From: Patescibacteria group bacterium
Lineage (GTDB): Bacteria > Patescibacteriota > Gracilibacteria > UM-FILTER-43-11
Assembly (NCBI GenBank): GCA_018814945.1
Contig: JAHIYT010000016.1
Location: 1 to 13,736 of the forward strand
Direction of reading: 5' to 3'
DNA length: 13,736 bases
Both the position numbers and the translations under genes were made by a program. Below the pieces are notes generated by a model. The model ran no database searches and had not been told where the DNA came from. It worked only from the letters and a program-made list of their open reading frames with translations. Positions 704 to 12,689 of the stretch are shown here, in pieces (the first letter of the stretch is position 1; every line of letters starts with the position of its first letter).

Positions 704-2212
704 TCAAATTAATGCATCACATTCCATTTCTTCCGGCTTCGGCACACCCAACAGCTTGAGAATGGTTGGTGCTATTTGGCATAATCCACCTTGTTTCACA
801 CTAGTAATTTTCTCATTTGGATCAGCTAGCAAAAAGATAACCGGATTCATGGAGTGGGCTGGTTTTTGATCACCATTTGCATACACCATATCATCTGCAT
901 TACCATGATCGGCAGTAAGTAGCATTGTGTAAGCAGATTCCATAGCTTGTTTGTAAAGTCTGCCTATTCCTTCGTCTACAGATTCTACAGCTTTAACGGT
1001 TGCCTCTAGGTCACCGGAGTGACCGACAAGATCGCAGTTAGCATAATTTACAATTATTACATCGTGGTGAGCATCTTTCAGTGCACCTACAACTTTCTCC
1101 GTTACTTCCGGTGCAGACATTTCTGGTTGCTCGGCATAACTTGGAACCTTTGGTGAATGCACTAGTATACGATCTTCACCTTTTACAGGCTCTTCAACTT
1201 GTGAGTTGAAAAAGAAAGTTACATGAGCGTATTTTTCTGTTTCTGCACATCTGAGTTGTGTTTTGCCATTTTTTGAGAGCCAATTAGCCAAATTATTTTC
1301 AACTTTTGGTACATCAAATACAACCGGTGCAATCTCGGAATATGGCCCCATGCATACAAACTCGACTGTACCCACATGCCTTTCAAATTCAGTGAAGTTA
1401 GGGTCAACGAATGCGGATGTAAGCTGACGTGTGCGGTCTGTTCGGTAATTGAAAAATATAAGTGCATCACCTTCTTTTACAAGTCCGGACTCGTCTAAAA
1501 CAATTGGCGGAATATAATAATCGGTTATATCTTTGTCCGCTTCGTAATGATGTGCAAGAGCCTTATAGGGATCAGAAAAAGATTCCCCTTCCCCAAGTGT
1601 CATTAGGCGATATCCTTTTTCTGTACGATCCCAATTTTTATCACGATCCATAGAAAAATAACGCCCAACCATTGTAGCAATTTTTCCAACACCAGTTTCT
1701 TCGATTTTGTTCTCAACCTGTTTTATAAATCTATCCGCACTACGTTCTTCTACATCACGCCCATCGAGTATTAGGTGGACGTAAACATTTTCAAGTTTTT
1801 CTTTCGCCGCCCAATCTAGGAGGGCAAGAAGGTGATTGATATGAGAATGAACCCCTTTGTCAGAGATCATACCAAGTAAATGGAGAGATTTTTTGTTCTC
1901 TTTGGCATGTTGGAATGCATTTACTAATGGTTTCTTTTTATAAAACGATCCATCTTCAATAGACCAATTTATATCGAGAAGAAATTGTGGAACGACACGC
2001 CCTGCACCAATGGTAAAATGACCAACTTCAGAACCGCCCATGCTACCTTCGGTAAGACCAACAGCTTCACCGAAGCATTGTAGAATATTAAAAGGATATT
2101 TTCTGCGGAGCATATCAATATTTGGCGTATTAGCCAAAGTAATGGCGTTACCAGGCCCCGGAGGAGCCTCACCAAAACCATCACATATTACAAGAAGAAC
2201 TTTCTTATTCAT
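704..2212 (-). CDS. gpmI: 2,3-bisphosphoglycerate-independent phosphoglycerate mutase
   Basis: Interconverts 3- and 2-phosphoglycerate in glycolysis/gluconeogenesis in the cytoplasm, using two metal ions (Mn in characterised bacterial members) and a phosphoserine intermediate. The alkaline-phosphatase-like fold is clear: metal Asp11 in V-I-C-D-G-F-G; nucleophile Ser61 in M-G-G-S-E-V-G-H; His122 in G-V-H-S-H; the substrate loop D-G-R-D-V (150-154); G-R-Y-F-S-M-D-R-D; F-F-N-Y-R-T-D-R; metal residues Asp394 and His398 (N-C-D-L-V-G-H-S-G), Asp435 and His436 (T-A-D-H-G-N), and His453 (A-H-S-M-N-P-V). All key residues are present, and 502 residues is close to the usual length of about 510. I chose the ATG at 2212 over the in-frame ATG at 2269: homology starts at N-K-K-V-L-L, and a good promoter (2237-2266) lies between the two ATGs. 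The gene converges with the small membrane gene and diverges from rel. Odd feature: residues 241-244 (E-S-G-L) are encoded by a near-copy of the palindrome found in the transposase gene. Confidence 0.97.
   Translation of the reverse strand: MNKKVLLVICDGFGEAPPGPGNAITLANTPNIDMLRRKYPFNILQCFGEAVGLTEGSMGGSEVGHFTIGAGRVVPQFLLDINWSIEDGSFYKKKPLVNAFQHAKENKKSLHLLGMISDKGVHSHINHLLALLDWAAKEKLENVYVHLILDGRDVEERSADRFIKQVENKIEETGVGKIATMVGRYFSMDRDKNWDRTEKGYRLMTLGEGESFSDPYKALAHHYEADKDITDYYIPPIVLDESGLVKEGDALIFFNYRTDRTRQLTSAFVDPNFTEFERHVGTVEFVCMGPYSEIAPVVFDVPKVENNLANWLSKNGKTQLRCAETEKYAHVTFFFNSQVEEPVKGEDRILVHSPKVPSYAEQPEMSAPEVTEKVVGALKDAHHDVIIVNYANCDLVGHSGDLEATVKAVESVDEGIGRLYKQAMESAYTMLLTADHGNADDMVYANGDQKPAHSMNPVIFLLADPNEKITSVKQGGLCQIAPTILKLLGVPKPEEMECDALI
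1481..1492. repeat. near-copy (11/12) of the GAGTCCGGACTC palindrome inside gpmI
   Basis: The plus strand reads AAGTCCGGACTC, with a perfect 10-bp palindromic centre (AGTCCGGACT, 1482-1491). On the gpmI strand it reads GAG TCC GGA CTT, encoding E-S-G-L in a surface-type loop just before K-E-G-D-A-L-I-F-F-N. It could be coincidence or a decayed member of the palindrome family seen at 7824-8456. Confidence 0.45.
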
Positions 2213-2236
2213 TATTTTTTTATTTACGTTGTCACT

Positions 2237-2266
2237 ACTATAACAATGACTGATGAACTGTGTCCA
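2237..2266 (-). promoter_or_regulatory. sigma70-type promoter of gpmI
   Basis: On the minus strand TGGACA (2266-2261) is followed after 18 bases by TATAGT (2242-2237). Both boxes match consensus in five of six positions. Transcription would start near 2230, giving a leader of about 18 bases to the ATG at 2212. This makes the upstream ATG at 2269 impossible on this transcript. Confidence 0.65.
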
Positions 2267-2294
2267 CATTGGTAATTAATCAATTAAGACATTC

Positions 2295-7805: not shown

Positions 7806-8375
7806 CTATATATTACCAAATTCGAGTCCGGACTCCAATAGCCCATCGAATTTTTTAAAGCTATTGCAATAGTCTTCAAAAGTTATTAAATCGGAGTCCG
7901 GACTCGATTCTAAATAAAAAGACAAAGAAGTATATGGCCAATTCCAATCAGAGGCAATTTTGTGGTGACTTGGTTGTCTGTGAACATAATGTAGTAATTG
8001 TATCAAATATTCCTCATTATCCACCATCTTAGCCTCAAATCTACCCTGAAAAACTGATCCCATTTTCTCATATTGATTTTTAAAATACATTGCATGTGAC
8101 TGCTGTAACTTTAAGAAAAATGATGAAATTGGATTTGGAGTCCGGACTCCATTTTTACCACCGTCAGCCTCAATCGCCCTAACAAGCATATGAAAATGAT
8201 TTGGCATTAATGCCCAGGCAAGCACCTGAACATTGTATTTATCTTTATACTTATAAATTTTCCCCAAAAAACGTTCATAATCCTTATCTCGCAAAAATAT
8301 ACTCTCTTTGCGAATCCCTCTATTATATACGTGATACACTTGTTCATTAATAAGTTCTACTTTTCTATATGGCAT
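7806..8375 (-). CDS. REP-associated tyrosine transposase (RAYT), Y1/HUH family
   Basis: A 189-residue member of the IS200-like Y1 transposase superfamily (Y1_Tnp), RAYT branch. These enzymes nick single-stranded DNA through a tyrosine and act on short palindromic REP elements rather than on an IS with defined ends. The HUH pair is His60-Phe-His62 in A-L-M-P-N-H-F-H-M-L-V. The likely catalytic Tyr is Tyr130 in L-H-Y-V-H-R-Q-P, equivalent to the usual Y-I-H-x-N-P motif. The tail W-P-Y-T-S-L-S-F-Y (146-154) matches the family's W-S-S-Y-x-x-Y region. The start is supported by N-x-x-Y-H-V-Y-N-R-G near residue 10 and by a strong promoter. It has neither flanking IS ends nor a tnpB partner. The palindrome GAGTCCGGACTC occurs three times inside the gene, at residues 76-80, 157-161 and 181-184, in three different frames, and once next to its promoter. 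The gene appears intact. Confidence 0.9.
   Translation of the reverse strand: MPYRKVELINEQVYHVYNRGIRKESIFLRDKDYERFLGKIYKYKDKYNVQVLAWALMPNHFHMLVRAIEADGGKNGVRTPNPISSFFLKLQQSHAMYFKNQYEKMGSVFQGRFEAKMVDNEEYLIQLLHYVHRQPSHHKIASDWNWPYTSLSFYLESSPDSDLITFEDYCNSFKKFDGLLESGLEFGNI
7824..7835. repeat. GAGTCCGGACTC palindrome, copy 1 (inside RAYT gene)
   Basis: Perfect 12-bp palindrome. On the coding strand it starts at codon position 1 and is read GAG TCC GGA CTC, E-S-G-L, residues 181-184, six residues before the C-terminus. It lies after the conserved transposase core. Confidence 0.95.
7893..7905. repeat. GAGTCCGGACTC palindrome, copy 2 (inside RAYT gene)
   Basis: Perfect 12-bp palindrome at 7894-7905 with one extra G at 7893. 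On the coding strand it starts at codon position 3 and is read as S-P-D-S (residues 158-161), in a Ser/Asp-rich linker after the conserved W-P-Y-T-S-L-S-F-Y region. Confidence 0.95.
8137..8150. repeat. GAGTCCGGACTC palindrome, copy 3 (inside RAYT gene)
   Basis: A 14-bp perfect palindrome, GGAGTCCGGACTCC. On the coding strand the 12-bp core starts at codon position 2 and is read G-V-R-T-P (residues 76-80), within a Gly/Asn/Pro-rich loop between the HUH strand and the next helix. Confidence 0.95.
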
Positions 8376-8407
8376 AATAATTCACTTAAATACTATTTAT
8401 CGAAACC

Positions 8408-8436
8408 ATATTAGTAAACTTTTGTTCACTTGTCAA
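8408..8436 (-). promoter_or_regulatory. sigma70-type promoter of the RAYT gene
   Basis: Minus strand TTGACA (8436-8431, perfect -35), a 17-base spacer, then TAATAT (8413-8408). Start near 8401, leader about 25 bases. The perfect 20-bp palindrome 8437-8456 touches the -35 box with no gap, a position suited to control of transcription. Confidence 0.7.
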
Positions 8437-8456
8437 TAGGGAGTCCGGACTCCCTA
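8437..8456. repeat. extended 20-bp palindrome, copy 4, adjoining the RAYT promoter
   Basis: TAGG-GAGTCCGGACTC-CCTA is a perfect 20-bp palindrome, the longest of the four copies and the only one outside coding sequence. It is much richer in G and C than its surroundings. It could be the least altered REP-like unit, an operator, or both. Confidence 0.95.
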
Positions 8457-8473
8457 CAAAAAACCCAACCACC

Positions 8474-8505
8474 AAAAAACCCCCGCCTTTCGGCGGGGGT
8501 TTTTT
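8474..8505 (-). terminator. strong Rho-independent terminator of the S-layer gene
   Basis: A 14-bp perfect stem: six A, five C, GCC, loop TTTC, then the exact complement ending in six T. On the minus strand the loop is a stable GAAA tetraloop and the hairpin ends in six U, 41 bases after the S-layer stop. It is symmetrical and would also stop plus-strand transcription. It insulates the RAYT gene from the strongly expressed S-layer gene. Confidence 0.95.
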
Positions 8506-8546: not shown

Positions 8547-11500
8547 TTAGTAAGTTAAAGTATTAGAAGTTAATTCTGTAATACCTAACAAGTAACCGTT
8601 TGTCCAGTCGTAAGAACCAAGACCGTCACCAACGTTCAAACTGTGAGCGTCAGCTGATTTATCTGACCAGATAATATTCCTAATTGTAGTACCGTACAAT
8701 TGTTGTAGATCAGTTGTGGCAGCAACGAAGATACCACGAGTAGCATCACCAACATCAGTAATAGCACCAGTATTAGGATTAGTTTCAGCATTTAAACCAC
8801 TAAGAGCTGTACCTTCATCACCACTAGCAAGACGAGCTGTAACAGCATCGTTACTAACAGCACCGGAAACAGTACCCTTTAAGTAATATGTGTTAGTTGC
8901 ACCCTTGCTAACAGTTTGTTCTGTAGTAAAGGAAACAAGAACCTTATATGTACCATCAGCGGTTGTAGCATCATTAGCACCATCACAATCCTCAAATGTA
9001 GGAGTTGCACTAACAGCAATGTCATGCGCAGCAATTACATTAAGAGGACACCAGATGTCTGCTGTAGTCATTAGAGTTGCACCTTTGTAGAAAGCAAAGT
9101 CTTGGATGTCAGCGATACCAGCGGTTGTAACATCAAATACTAAACGTGCAAATCCAACAGAACCACCAACACCATCAGCTGTAATACTTACACCGTACAA
9201 TGTGTTTTCACCATTGATAAGAGTGGTAGAACCACTAACCTTAGCAAAGGTTGGTTTAGTTGTACGAACAGTAAATCCATTAACAGTAGAAGATGTGTTC
9301 ATTGTTGGGTTTAAGAATGTGCTAGAAGAAGATTCACCAACAGCTGTAAATGTAGAAGCAGTGTTTCCTGTTTCTTGGATACCAAGACGGAATGTCTGAC
9401 CGGAAATAGCTTCACCTACATTGGTTTTACCGTTAACGTTTGCATAAACTTCTACGTAAGCATCATCATCTTTTGGTACATAGAAAGTTAATCCAGATAG
9501 TGTAGCTACACCACCAGACAGAGAAGCTGTCTTTGATTGTTCTACACCGTTAACGTCGGTATATTTGATAGTTACACTACTAACAGCACTGGTAGCAGTA
9601 GCTGTTTCAAATGTAGTAGTAGTATCGTTCATTACAGTAAGTTTTGTGATATCAAAACCTTCTTGTAATGCATGGTAACGATATTTAGCAACTAATTGCT
9701 CAGTTGTACCACCAACAGTAATATCAGCATCTGGGTTACCTTCAGAGTAAGCAGTAAGAGTACCAGATGTACCGATAGTCATAAGTGGGTTTGGTGTACC
9801 AGCAAGGTTCAAGTTAGTAGAACCACTAGCAGTAATGGTATTATCATCTGAATCTTCAGCAATAATATCAGTACTTGGGATGATATCTAATGCAACATAA
9901 GAAATAGCAGACATACCGTTAAGTAGGTCAAGTTTAGCTACATAAGTATTTGTAGCACCAGCATCTACTTCAAGATTTAGGTCTTCAAATATAGCATTAT
10001 AGTAATCACGTTCACCATCAAATGAACCTGCAGTACCACCAGTAACATCAACTAGACTAATTGATTCAGGACCAGCAACTACGTCATCACCATCGTAAAG
10101 AGTTACAGATGATACATAATTGTTAGCAGCAATATCACCAGTTGCTTGAACTGCATCTGCATCACCATTGTTGAAATTACCATCATTATCACCGTATACA
10201 CGTACTGTCAATCTCTTAAGTGTGATAGGACCAGCATCACCAGCTCTCATAGCAAGACCAAGAGCAGGAACTGCATCCTCACCCTTAACATAAGTTTGAG
10301 AAGTTGGTGTAGAAGAAGCAGTAACAGTAAGGCTGTTAGCTGCAACTGTCATGCTCTTACCAGTTAATGGAGAACCAACGATGTCACCAACGGCAACATA
10401 TTCGTTAGCATCTGCATCTTTGATGTAGCTAGCGTTAGTTGTGTAATCAACTGTAGCAGAGATTTGGTAATCAGCAGGTAGGTTGATATCTGTATCAAAC
10501 CATACAGCCATGTGACGAGCGTCACCACCTGTTAGGTCGAAATCTTCTGTGAAGACTTTTGTATAAGTAGTGTTTGTACCACCACCATTTTCAGTACCTT
10601 GGTTAGCATAAGTTAATGGACCAGCAAGTGTAGAACCACTGTCTCTATCCACAACTTTTACGTTCTTAAGGTAACCGTAAACGTTTACCTCAGTCCAAGT
10701 TTCTGTACCAACAAGAGCTGTTAAGTCATCATCAGATGCAACACAAAGTCCACCATCGTTGGTAGAACCATCGTTAGTAACTACACGCATGTAGTTTGTA
10801 CCAATCTGCATCATATCAGCAGCTGTAAGGTCAGCTTGGTGAGCAGCAGTGTTAAGTTCGTATTCAGTAGCTGCACAAGCACCACCTAAAATTGGAACTG
10901 CATCGATTGTACCAGTGTTACCACTAGCCCAGTCAGGTGTATCAGTACCATCAGTAATTGTAATAGTTACATCAGTATTTTTAACCTGAAGGTCACGATC
11001 TACTGTAAGAGAGAAGTCTAGAAGACTTAGGTTAGTAGCATTGCTAGCAACTTGAGTTGCAGCAGGACCGTTGTCAGTTAAAGTAACTTTACCACCTTTA
11101 AGGTTGATAGCTGTTACACCAGCAATTGTGTAGCTAGTGTTAGTAATTACAGCACCAAAACCATATTGTTGGTCGATAGCAATTACATCTGTGTTCTCAT
11201 CTAGGTAAAGTTCGATAGTATCAGTTGTACGTCCACCATCGATATCACCACGAACATAGAAAGATTTAGTTTGACCTTTAGGGATCACATAAGGTGTATC
11301 AAGAACGAATGTAGCAGTATCTCCATCGAATCCATCAGATGTAGCTACTTCGTCTGTACCACGCAATAAGCGTAGGTTAACCATTTTCTCAGAGTTCAAT
11401 GAACCATTTTGAGTAACAGTAATTTGATGTAGAGCAATGTCATTGCTAGCTCCTGCTTGCATTCTAATAGCAGAAATTTCTACATCTTGAGCACCAATTT

Positions 11501-12689
11501 GTGGTTGAGCAGGTGTAGAGCCAGTAGTAAGTGTAAGAGTTTCTACAGAAACAGAACCAGTTGTAAATGTGTTACCTGCAACCGGGAAGTCCCCAGAAAC
11601 AGATAGAGCATTTGTGCTCATGTCAGCTGCAGAAGCAATGTAGAAGTAGTGTTGGTTGCTAGAGTTAGCAGTAGCAGCCATGTCACCTACTAATGTAAGT
11701 GTAGTAGTTGTACCAGCTTCAACAGCAAGAGATACTGGGAAAGTAGCTGTGTTGGTGTCACTGTTAAGTGTACGACCACTAGTCAAACGTTTTGTACCGT
11801 TGTATAGGTATAAAGCATTCCAATCTGTAACTTGACCTACACCACCACGAGTCATAACAACTTGTGTTATTTCAACATCGTCGTCAGCAGCAGTAACATC
11901 GAAAGAAAGAAGATTTACAGAAGAAGCAGAGATAGGAACTGTAGAAGAAGCAGGAGTATCGTCATTTAGAGATACTTCAAGTTCTCCTTCACCAGTAACC
12001 TCACCTTCTCCTTCACCTTCTCCTTCACCTTCTCCTTCACCAACTACACGTTCTACTGGGTTCTGTGAAAGTACAACAAGTTTTGCAACTTGAGCACGAG
12101 TCACAGGATCAGCAGGGCCGAAGTAACCATTATCATAACCATCTAGAATAGATTGGTTGTATGCAGTTACTACATAGTCGTAGTACCAAGCAGAAGAAGT
12201 TACATCAGGGAAGATAGAAGCTGGATCAAGATCTGTTGGAACGCTGAAAGCGTTAACAAGGATCTTTGTAGCAGCTGCACGGTTTACAGTGTCTCCAGGA
12301 CCAAACATTCCGGTAAGGTTACCAGAAGCATCGGTGTATCCGTTAACAATGCCAAGCTGTACAGCAGCTTCTACGTAATCGTAGTACCAAGCATCAGTAG
12401 CAACATCATCGAAGGTAGCTGTAGCTGGAGCTTCATATCCAGCAAGACCATCGATAGCAGTAACTGCGATCTTGACAAGTTCTGCACGATTAAGTGCATC
12501 AGCAGGACGATAGTTATCAGCAGCGTCGATAACTCCATCGTCTACTAGTTGTTCAACATAGTCGAAGTACCAAGCGTCTGTTGATACGTCGTTGAACGTT
12601 TGAGCAAGAGCTACAGATGCGTTTGTTGCAAATAAAGCAACAGTAGCAAGAATAGCAAATGTTCTTTTAAATTTAAGAGCAATACTCAT
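8547..12689 (-). CDS. S-layer protein with three N-terminal SLH domains
   Basis: A 1380-residue exported protein, probably the surface-layer subunit. A signal peptide (1-29; A-S-V-A-L-A before Gln30) is followed by SLH domains at about 32-81, 93-150 and 160-209, each with D-V-x-x-x-A-W-Y-(F/Y)-D-Y-V and the second-half motif N-R-A-E, N-R-A-A or T-R-A-Q. SLH domains anchor such proteins to a cell-surface polymer; the polymer used here is unknown. A Gly-Glu repeat linker (217-236) leads into a long Thr/Ser/Ala/Asp-rich beta region. Its modules begin in a similar way near 237, 381, 528, 781, 970 and 1135 (V/L-x-L/V, a nearby Pro, later D/I-x-L-x-x-L/I-T-V). The end (from about 1335) has I-I-W-S-D-K-S-A and Y-D-W-T-N-G-Y-L-L-G. 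Only four Cys are present. Codon choice is restricted, as expected for high expression. It is monocistronic, closed by the terminator at 8474-8505, with no Shine-Dalgarno site before its ATG. Confidence 0.93.
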   Translation of the reverse strand: MSIALKFKRTFAILATVALFATNASVALAQTFNDVSTDAWYFDYVEQLVDDGVIDAADNYRPADALNRAELVKIAVTAIDGLAGYEAPATATFDDVATDAWYYDYVEAAVQLGIVNGYTDASGNLTGMFGPGDTVNRAAATKILVNAFSVPTDLDPASIFPDVTSSAWYYDYVVTAYNQSILDGYDNGYFGPADPVTRAQVAKLVVLSQNPVERVVGEGEGEGEGEGEGEVTGEGELEVSLNDDTPASSTVPISASSVNLLSFDVTAADDDVEITQVVMTRGGVGQVTDWNALYLYNGTKRLTSGRTLNSDTNTATFPVSLAVEAGTTTTLTLVGDMAATANSSNQHYFYIASAADMSTNALSVSGDFPVAGNTFTTGSVSVETLTLTTGSTPAQPQIGAQDVEISAIRMQAGASNDIALHQITVTQNGSLNSEKMVNLRLLRGTDEVATSDGFDGDTATFVLDTPYVIPKGQTKSFYVRGDIDGGRTTDTIELYLDENTDVIAIDQQYGFGAVITNTSYTIAGVTAINLKGGKVTLTDNGPAATQVASNATNLSLLDFSLTVDRDLQVKNTDVTITITDGTDTPDWASGNTGTIDAVPILGGACAATEYELNTAAHQADLTAADMMQIGTNYMRVVTNDGSTNDGGLCVASDDDLTALVGTETWTEVNVYGYLKNVKVVDRDSGSTLAGPLTYANQGTENGGGTNTTYTKVFTEDFDLTGGDARHMAVWFDTDINLPADYQISATVDYTTNASYIKDADANEYVAVGDIVGSPLTGKSMTVAANSLTVTASSTPTSQTYVKGEDAVPALGLAMRAGDAGPITLKRLTVRVYGDNDGNFNNGDADAVQATGDIAANNYVSSVTLYDGDDVVAGPESISLVDVTGGTAGSFDGERDYYNAIFEDLNLEVDAGATNTYVAKLDLLNGMSAISYVALDIIPSTDIIAEDSDDNTITASGSTNLNLAGTPNPLMTIGTSGTLTAYSEGNPDADITVGGTTEQLVAKYRYHALQEGFDITKLTVMNDTTTTFETATATSAVSSVTIKYTDVNGVEQSKTASLSGGVATLSGLTFYVPKDDDAYVEVYANVNGKTNVGEAISGQTFRLGIQETGNTASTFTAVGESSSSTFLNPTMNTSSTVNGFTVRTTKPTFAKVSGSTTLINGENTLYGVSITADGVGGSVGFARLVFDVTTAGIADIQDFAFYKGATLMTTADIWCPLNVIAAHDIAVSATPTFEDCDGANDATTADGTYKVLVSFTTEQTVSKGATNTYYLKGTVSGAVSNDAVTARLASGDEGTALSGLNAETNPNTGAITDVGDATRGIFVAATTDLQQLYGTTIRNIIWSDKSADAHSLNVGDGLGSYDWTNGYLLGITELTSNTLTY
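11982..12041. repeat. 12-bp tandem repeat coding for the Gly-Glu linker
   Basis: Five 12-base units: TTCTCCTTCACC at 11982, a diverged unit at 11994, then three identical units at 12006, 12018 and 12030. On the coding strand they give G-E-G-E repeats, interrupted once by V-T. The linker joins the SLH anchor to the rest of the protein, so copy-number change would alter its length without a frameshift. Confidence 0.9.

Follow-up and report, generated by a model that had tools for sequence, protein, structure and literature searches.

Does a transposase gene that holds several copies of one perfect palindrome carry the target of its own enzyme? This question is raised by positions 1 to 13,736 of contig JAHIYT010000016.1 from a Patescibacteria group bacterium (assembly GCA_018814945.1), a stretch of 13,736 nt called the window hereafter. 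The palindrome GAGTCCGGACTC occurs there four times at the gene of a putative RAYT (REP-associated tyrosine transposase, REP meaning repetitive extragenic palindrome), and three of the copies lie within its open reading frame (ORF). Analysis of this locus, of its genome and of related RAYTs indicates that the palindrome is probably the cognate, REP-like target of the RAYT whose gene holds it. The data are best read as a REP/RAYT-like system whose targets are very short and lack a GTAG tag. G, C and L numbers designate genomes, contigs and loci, respectively, G000 being the genome of the window.

The palindrome and the RAYT of the window

The window gene was assigned to the RAYTs by its fold. 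Its ORF was matched by Pfam Y1_Tnp (E 4e-9), and the H-x-H motif of the Y1 HUH fold (H60-F-H62) was unchanged across 52 sequences. An AlphaFold2 model built on 52 sequences (mean predicted local distance difference test, pLDDT, 87.6) had as its top PDB fold match 4er8 (E 2.2e-8), a RAYT with a bound REP hairpin, whereas a sequence-based PDB search with the window RAYT gave 0 matches. According to this model, the gene is a RAYT. It also matched NCBIfam REP_Tyr_transpos (E 2.7e-14), with a score of 53.3 bits; this score and those of three relatives (57.8-62.8 bits) are below the curated cut-off of 80.

The four exact copies reported by the initial annotation were recovered by sequence matching (Table 1), together with the three reading frames that it had described for the copies within the ORF: E-S-G-L starts at codon position 1, S-P-D-S at position 3 and G-V-R-T-P at position 2. 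Their placement in loops or linkers also holds on the AlphaFold2 model, where they fall in loops 68-81 and 158-165 and in a low-confidence tail. Five copies with at most two mismatches were present in the window, a number expected to be 0.18 and reached in 0 of 200 shuffled sequences. One palindrome lies ahead of the gene, and the only copy on the downstream side is the one within the ORF end.

In G000 (1,034,134 bases in 187 contigs, 89% complete, 3.9% contamination), 16 exact and three one-mismatch copies were counted, with 0 for the reversed control. A Markov model derived from 89 kb of this genome predicted 0.010-0.014 exact copies, so that the count, suggested as a check by the initial annotation, was far above the near-expectation value that would have spoken against its proposal. 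Three of the 16 copies were in the RAYT gene, nine in other ORFs, one at a MurD-like N-terminus and three outside ORFs. Among the 18 genomes of the window's family, exact copies were found in four: G006 (34, of which 17 were read), G000 (16), G012 (4) and G001 (2). A RAYT of at least 68% identity is present in precisely these four; weak matches were obtained in three others. Judged by this co-occurrence, the palindrome goes together with the RAYT in the window's family. The 10-bp core is present at homologous places in the four close RAYTs (V-R-T in 4/4, S-P-D-S in 4/4, E-S-G-L in 3/4). Over a set of 116 genomes, 11 had exact copies (the reversed control never exceeded 1, a value seen in three genomes). 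The seven outside the family had one to five copies each, and three of them (G053, G080, G091) have a more distant RAYT.

Other RAYTs hold other palindromes

A palindrome was assigned to a RAYT gene when at least two copies were present in its 700-bp flanks, palindromes made of A/T only being dropped. This was the case for 31 of 80 genes examined; the window RAYT is not among the 31 because it has only one flank copy. The RAYT's own palindrome was found within the ORF in 20 of these 31 (38 copies, ten different palindromes), and the palindrome of another RAYT in 2 of 341 tests, both concerning L225, whose flanks hold two palindromes. Ten of the 12 palindrome sequences have CCGG or TCGA at their centre; the exceptions are GATCTAGATC, located within longer CCCGGG palindromes, and TAAACGTTTA, perhaps a chance palindrome. 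The copies within ORFs map to residues 67-80, 102, 156-161 and 181-189 of the window RAYT, and one is found right at the beginning of L182, a gene with an uncertain start codon. L225 itself (1238-2143, minus strand, G080) is a RAYT-like ORF of about 302 residues, with a loop 1 of 78 residues rich in palindrome-encoded repeats. An in-frame TGA is present in RAYTs of the window's class; together with the bin of L088 (see below), it would suggest the GTDB class Gracilibacteria.

The palindrome can differ between closely related RAYTs. L178, L179 and L180 cluster together (support 100/94) yet hold three different palindromes (AGTTCGAACT, AGACCGGTCT and ATCCCGGGAT, respectively), each within its own gene, while AGACCGGTCT and AGTCCGGACT were each found in two separate parts of the RAYT tree. 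Palindromes were also counted in 18 selected genomes (reversed control at most 1, this value being reached by three genomes of one set). GAGACCGGTCTC was found in G101 (32 copies), G509 (13), G114 (12), G533 (8) and G553 (4), once each in G080, G093 and G096, and in none of ten others; GAGTTCGAACTC in G053 (22), G101 (8), G114 (6) and G080 (one), with 14 genomes devoid of it; CATCCCGGGATG in G096 (14) and G114 (one), with 16 devoid of it. Among genome-palindrome pairs with at least four copies, seven had a matching RAYT (G101, G509, G533 and G553; G053 and G114; G096). In G053, AGTTCGAACT copies crowd toward the end of contig C6 (L274, L275) and near the start of C7 (L276), where the RAYT of this genome also lies; the two contigs may be neighbours.

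Carrying such a palindrome is not a rule for all RAYTs. From 565 confirmed RAYT loci in a scan of named genomes, 80 were retained; 78 of these had no palindrome with at least three copies within 700 bp (five have two copies), the two others being L068 (JAHJBZ010000047.1) and L088 (a Gracilibacteria bin). Likewise, none of 24 RAYTs examined from other classes, a part of the matches, had a palindrome of two copies.

Position of the copies around RAYT genes

Cognate palindromes were chosen by hand from the flank results for the analysis of density (29 genes), position and loops (31) and promoters (28). The density set omits one of the two L204 genes, L213 and L224; L148 and L225 were assigned AACCCGGGTT. 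The start codon was taken as the nearest ATG ahead of or at the start of the domain. Over the 100 bp upstream of the gene, density reached 16.9 copies per kb (49 copies), and over the 100 bp downstream 8.3 (24 copies); it was 2.6 within the ORF and fell below 0.5 beyond 400 bp.

Among the 57 copies lying within 150 nt upstream, 14 precede the start codon by 2-8 nt. In 18 of 28 genes, the end of the best promoter-like match is located 29-43 nt ahead of the start, and in ten of the 28 the palindrome core ends 5-14 nt ahead of the -35 box, two of these ten having poor boxes. Twenty of the 28 matches score at least 9/12, a value often equalled by shuffled sequence. On the basis of these consensus matches, the upstream arrangement looks like that of operators. 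Within the protein, loop 1 had a median length of 18 residues in RAYTs with a loop copy (n=17), and of 14 both in cognate-bearing RAYTs without one (n=14) and in RAYTs without palindrome (n=35); it was nevertheless 14 residues or shorter in six of the 17.

Conservation as DNA

The use of identical codons was compared between homologues, counting only codons for the same residue and excluding changed residues. Over five orthologue pairs of G101 and G114, identical codons made up 32 of 33 within palindromes and 860 of 1657 elsewhere; when G114 served as the reference, the counts were 20/20 and 872/1670. In the clade of the window RAYT, identical codons within palindromes amounted to 10/10 in L040, 10/10 in L041 and 7/9 in L039, where one further palindrome residue is changed, compared with 49-57% outside. 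The use of different codons for E-S-G-L, S-P-D-S and G-V-R-T in homologous RAYTs, which according to the initial annotation would have pointed to conserved residues, was thus not what was found. Over all pairs, identical codons numbered 49/54 within palindromes against 406/696 outside in the window clade, and 45/48 against 411/642 in a second RAYT clade, that of AGACCGGTCT; the pairs of both clades share sequences and are not independent. These codon counts argue that the palindrome copies are conserved as DNA.

Several AGACCGGTCT sites intact in G101 were damaged or missing in G114 (the second site of ValS, the first site of IspDF, MnmA and the C-terminus of ArgS). Such losses, small in number, would fit decay in the absence of a matching RAYT; running counter to this idea, AGTTCGAACT sites are still present in G101, a genome for which the analysis found no matching RAYT.

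Palindrome doublets in household genes

Protein names given here rest on Pfam or PDB matches. Palindrome sites were compared between G101, G114 and G096, which belong to one genus, and doublet loci (L274-L312) between these three genomes and G053. LeuB of G101 has 18 extra codons carrying two copies, which are missing in G096 and G053. IspE of G114 has 21 extra residues missing in G101 and G096, IspH of G101 has 11 residues more than that of G096, and MnmA of G101 and G114 contains two insertions missing in G096 and in E. coli MnmA. Presence or absence of doublets between congeners in these four genes suggests a mobile doublet of the REPIN type (two inverted REPs). Relative to G096, ArgS is longer by ten residues in G114 and by only two in G101, and IspG of G101 is longer by one; therefore, close-set doublets can arise without sizeable insertion.

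Different palindromes may occupy the same site. In AroC, the two positions that hold a AGTTCGAACT pair in G101 and G114 hold a ATCCCGGGAT pair in G096, one of its copies having one mismatch; 14 residues are missing there in G091, G053 and G106, and those of G693 are unrelated. IspDF carries AGACCGGTCT in G101 and G114 and ATCCCGGGAT in G096, the stretch being missing in G693, G053 and G023. PgeF has AGTTCGAACT in G096, G101 and G114, with an additional AGACCGGTCT pair in G114 and ATCCCGGGAT pair in G096, and neither is present in G091. In ValS, the G096 protein is as long as those of G101 and G114, but no palindrome is intact in it. As judged from these alignments, palindrome doublets are inserted in frame in household genes of relatives, with empty sites in congeners.

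The initial annotation had proposed insertion into coding sequence. This stands for the doublets of relatives; it does not for the window's genome, where household copies are mostly free of indels, nor was an empty site found for the window RAYT. Its G-V-R-T-P loop is five residues longer than in its three close relatives, but these carry the palindrome there as well.

For doublets of the G101 genus, start-to-start spacing peaked at 11, 21-23 and 31-33 bp; the peak was at 15 bp for G053 and at 16-18 bp for the window's family. Phasing by DNA turns, as the spacings of 11, 21 and 32 bp in G101 and G114 might suggest, was rejected in view of the 15-18 bp of other genomes. Among the ValS-like sequences, one ORF of G101 (L293:320-2200, minus strand) has a His_Phos_1 domain at residues 17-158, followed by a class I tRNA-synthetase match; a similar stretch is found in L302 of G114, and in G096 the class I synthetase ORF (L279) has at its end an R-H-G-E stretch, similar by eye but without a Pfam match.

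Features of the window

Coordinates are collected in Table 1. Upstream of the RAYT gene lies an S-layer-type gene (8547-12689, minus strand) of 1380 residues with three S-layer homology domains. Rfam at gathering thresholds gave a single match, one tRNA. A second Y1_Tnp match in G000 (C46:2016-2228, L017; 26 bits) shares its contig with a single palindrome copy, which falls in none of the listed ORFs.

Table 1. Features at and around the RAYT locus of the window
Feature	Position	Strand	Remarks
RAYT-type Y1 (HUH) transposase gene, 189 aa	7806..8375	-	Pfam, NCBIfam, AlphaFold2 model
Palindrome copy 1, E-S-G-L, residues 181-184, C-terminal low-confidence tail	7824..7835		Exact; also in L040 and L041, absent from L039
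Palindrome copy 2, S-P-D-S, residues 158-161, loop 158-165 after helix	7894..7905		Exact; 10-bp core in 4/4 clade RAYTs
Palindrome copy 3, G-V-R-T-P, residues 76-80, loop 68-81	8138..8149		Exact; 10-bp core in 4/4 clade RAYTs, outer bases variable
20-bp perfect palindrome upstream of RAYT, core is exact copy 4 (8441-8452)	8437..8456		65 nt ahead of RAYT start codon
Promoter-like -35 box TTGACA, 5 nt past palindrome core	8431..8436	-	Consensus match only
Promoter-like -10 box TAATAT, spacing 17	8408..8413	-	Consensus match only
One-mismatch copy AAGTCCGGACTC, read E-S-G-L, in iPGM gene 704-2269 (-)	1481..1492		Sequence match, Pfam-scanned gene
Terminator-like inverted repeat, 14-bp arms 100% complementary	8474..8505		Between S-layer-type gene and RAYT; outside palindrome family

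Proposed mechanism and alternatives

In the mechanism that we favour, each RAYT in a branch of the window's class would have its own perfect palindrome of 10-12 bp, nearly always centred on CCGG or TCGA and scattered through its genome as singles and inverted doublets. By analogy with known RAYTs, the enzyme would bind it as a single-stranded hairpin, and doublets would be moved by cutting and joining in a REPIN-like manner. The RAYT may limit its own expression through the copies next to its promoter and start codon, and perhaps through those in the ORF; self-regulation via local copies is inferred from this anatomy. The link between RAYT and palindrome, local density, switching, in-frame doublets in relatives and conservation as DNA are the parts supported at the sequence level. 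They are consistent with the proposal of the initial annotation that a REP-like unit tied to a RAYT resides in coding sequence, including its own transposase gene.

Several observations weigh against this mechanism. Copy numbers are low (2-34 per genome), and 11 of the 31 RAYTs with a cognate palindrome have no copy within the ORF. No matching RAYT was found for the 12 GAGACCGGTCTC copies of G114 or the eight GAGTTCGAACTC copies of G101, both genomes being incomplete, nor did G030 (five GAGTCCGGACTC copies), G059, G084 and G105 (one each) give a match to the window RAYT. The RAYTs of the density profile were picked for having nearby copies, and promoter matches are weak one by one. A conserved GTAG-type tetranucleotide 5' of the palindrome was absent from five palindrome sets; that of G053 had a partial T-A-G (48, 45 and 80%), preceded by G in 3%. 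The close-set doublets of IspG and ArgS in G101 bring only one and two extra residues. Finally, six G000 proteins were compared with PDB relatives: AroB, Ung, CutA, PabB-like and TsaB had no indel at the palindrome and MiaB a 2-residue gap. Insertion as the source of single copies in these household genes was therefore not supported (5/6 proteins without indel). Such copies are left unexplained by the mechanism, and both point mutation under selection and short conversion are possible.

One extension would account for them: the RAYT would rewrite near-matches or sites of an older specificity into its current cognate, so that a host gene set stays marked and the RAYT regulates itself and this set. 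In-place rewriting would explain the indel-free single copies, the base-for-base conservation of sites and the AGTTCGAACT/ATCCCGGGAT switch in AroC; we nevertheless regard it as rather unlikely. A possible, though not the likeliest, explanation is that copies near and in the genes are by-products of a RAYT acting mainly near its own gene, with loops tolerating insertion and no regulatory role involved. The steep fall of density with distance, the 11 of 14 CATCCCGGGATG copies of G096 found on one contig within about 21 kb of the RAYT and the longer loop 1 of RAYTs with a loop copy (median 18 versus 14) are what it would predict. It accounts less well for the retention of the DNA, among RAYTs of the window clade as among household-gene orthologues, while other codons diverge, for the 14 of 57 upstream copies placed 2-8 nt before the start codon, and for the short loops (at most 14 residues) of 6/17 RAYTs with a loop copy.

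The palindrome could also be unrelated to the RAYT, as a HIP1-type highly iterated palindrome or the site of a methylase or another DNA-binding protein. It is indeed short, perfect, often in coding sequence and conserved as DNA, and some genomes have it with no matching RAYT found. Its sequence, however, is not the same in close relatives and agrees with the copies found within and near each RAYT, and 14 of the 18 genomes of the window's family lack GAGTCCGGACTC, which makes such an origin improbable. The HIP1-type alternative raised by the initial annotation is unsupported because the palindrome changes from one RAYT to another and in most cases goes with the RAYT. A function as DNA uptake sequence would agree with a short motif in permissive coding stretches, mostly free of indels in G000, but is hardly credible for a palindromic motif with 2-34 copies per genome that are local to the RAYT; for known uptake sequences, hundreds to thousands are reported (PMC2346458). 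As to selection on amino acids or chance, stretches such as E-A-G-L in TsaB and G-V-K-T-P in Ung do occur in PDB relatives (E-x-G-L and G-V-R-like stretches). Against this stand the three frames, the 16 copies for about 0.01 expected with a reversed control of 0, and codons that are identical where others diverge, the same residue with a different codon being seen only in part (7/9 in L039). The probability of this explanation is practically negligible, and the argument of the initial annotation that protein-level selection cannot account for the shared sequence is upheld by counts, frames and codons.

If the palindrome is the cognate target of the RAYT, both the enzyme and its probable target can be read from one gene, since ten palindromes sit within ORFs of their own RAYTs. 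Close relatives with different palindromes would then be ready pairs for studying how a RAYT reads its palindrome, and they allow a test of self-regulation. In addition, household genes are seen to have taken up doublets in frame, at sites that are empty in other members of the genus. To our knowledge, the benefit of a RAYT to the cell is an open question.

Comparison with known systems

HIP1-type elements are short palindromes found mostly in coding sequence. Unlike them, the present palindromes vary in sequence with the RAYT and have few copies; neither a single sequence throughout the clade nor independence from a transposase was observed. The hundreds to thousands of copies typical of uptake sequences were not reached either.

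The initial annotation considered an intragenic location of REPs as unusual, which does not stand, since REPs inside genes have already been published (PMC3733652). As far as the accessible part of that source goes, intragenic REPs and the Rickettsia palindromic elements RPE-4 and RPE-6 occur as single or double palindromes in protein genes, dimers encode 20-30 residues, and CGTC elements have no dedicated transposase; here, in contrast, each palindrome is tied to a RAYT. The same part of the text names only an overlap of flanking repeats with gene ends, copies within RAYT genes being unmentioned there. Among the openly accessible published articles listed by a library search, none dealt with RAYT palindromes from Patescibacteria or with such palindromes located in RAYT genes. 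Intragenic REPs and coevolution of RAYTs with REPs, the latter reported in the available text of PMC2817692, are thus known already, whereas this search brought up no account of palindromes that lie within RAYT genes and switch together with them.

REPINs share with our doublets two inverted copies and a spacer; here, the spacer diverges and the palindromes stay. The doublets are much smaller than REPINs, about 25-45 bp end to end as judged from the common spacings, and also differ by few copies and an in-frame position in household genes. Compared with REP/RAYT systems (REPtrons, TnpAREP), the present palindromes are uninterrupted, with a core of 10-12 bp instead of 20-40 nt and 2-34 copies instead of often more than 100; they are mostly coding instead of extragenic in G000 and lie within the ORF of 20/31 RAYTs. 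Small perfect palindromic REPs concentrated near the gene have been described for Marinomonas Mb (PMC8266576, in its accessible part). What the present loci have in common with REP/RAYT systems is an HUH/Y1 enzyme with the RAYT fold and a palindrome specific to that enzyme, found both near its gene and elsewhere in the genome.
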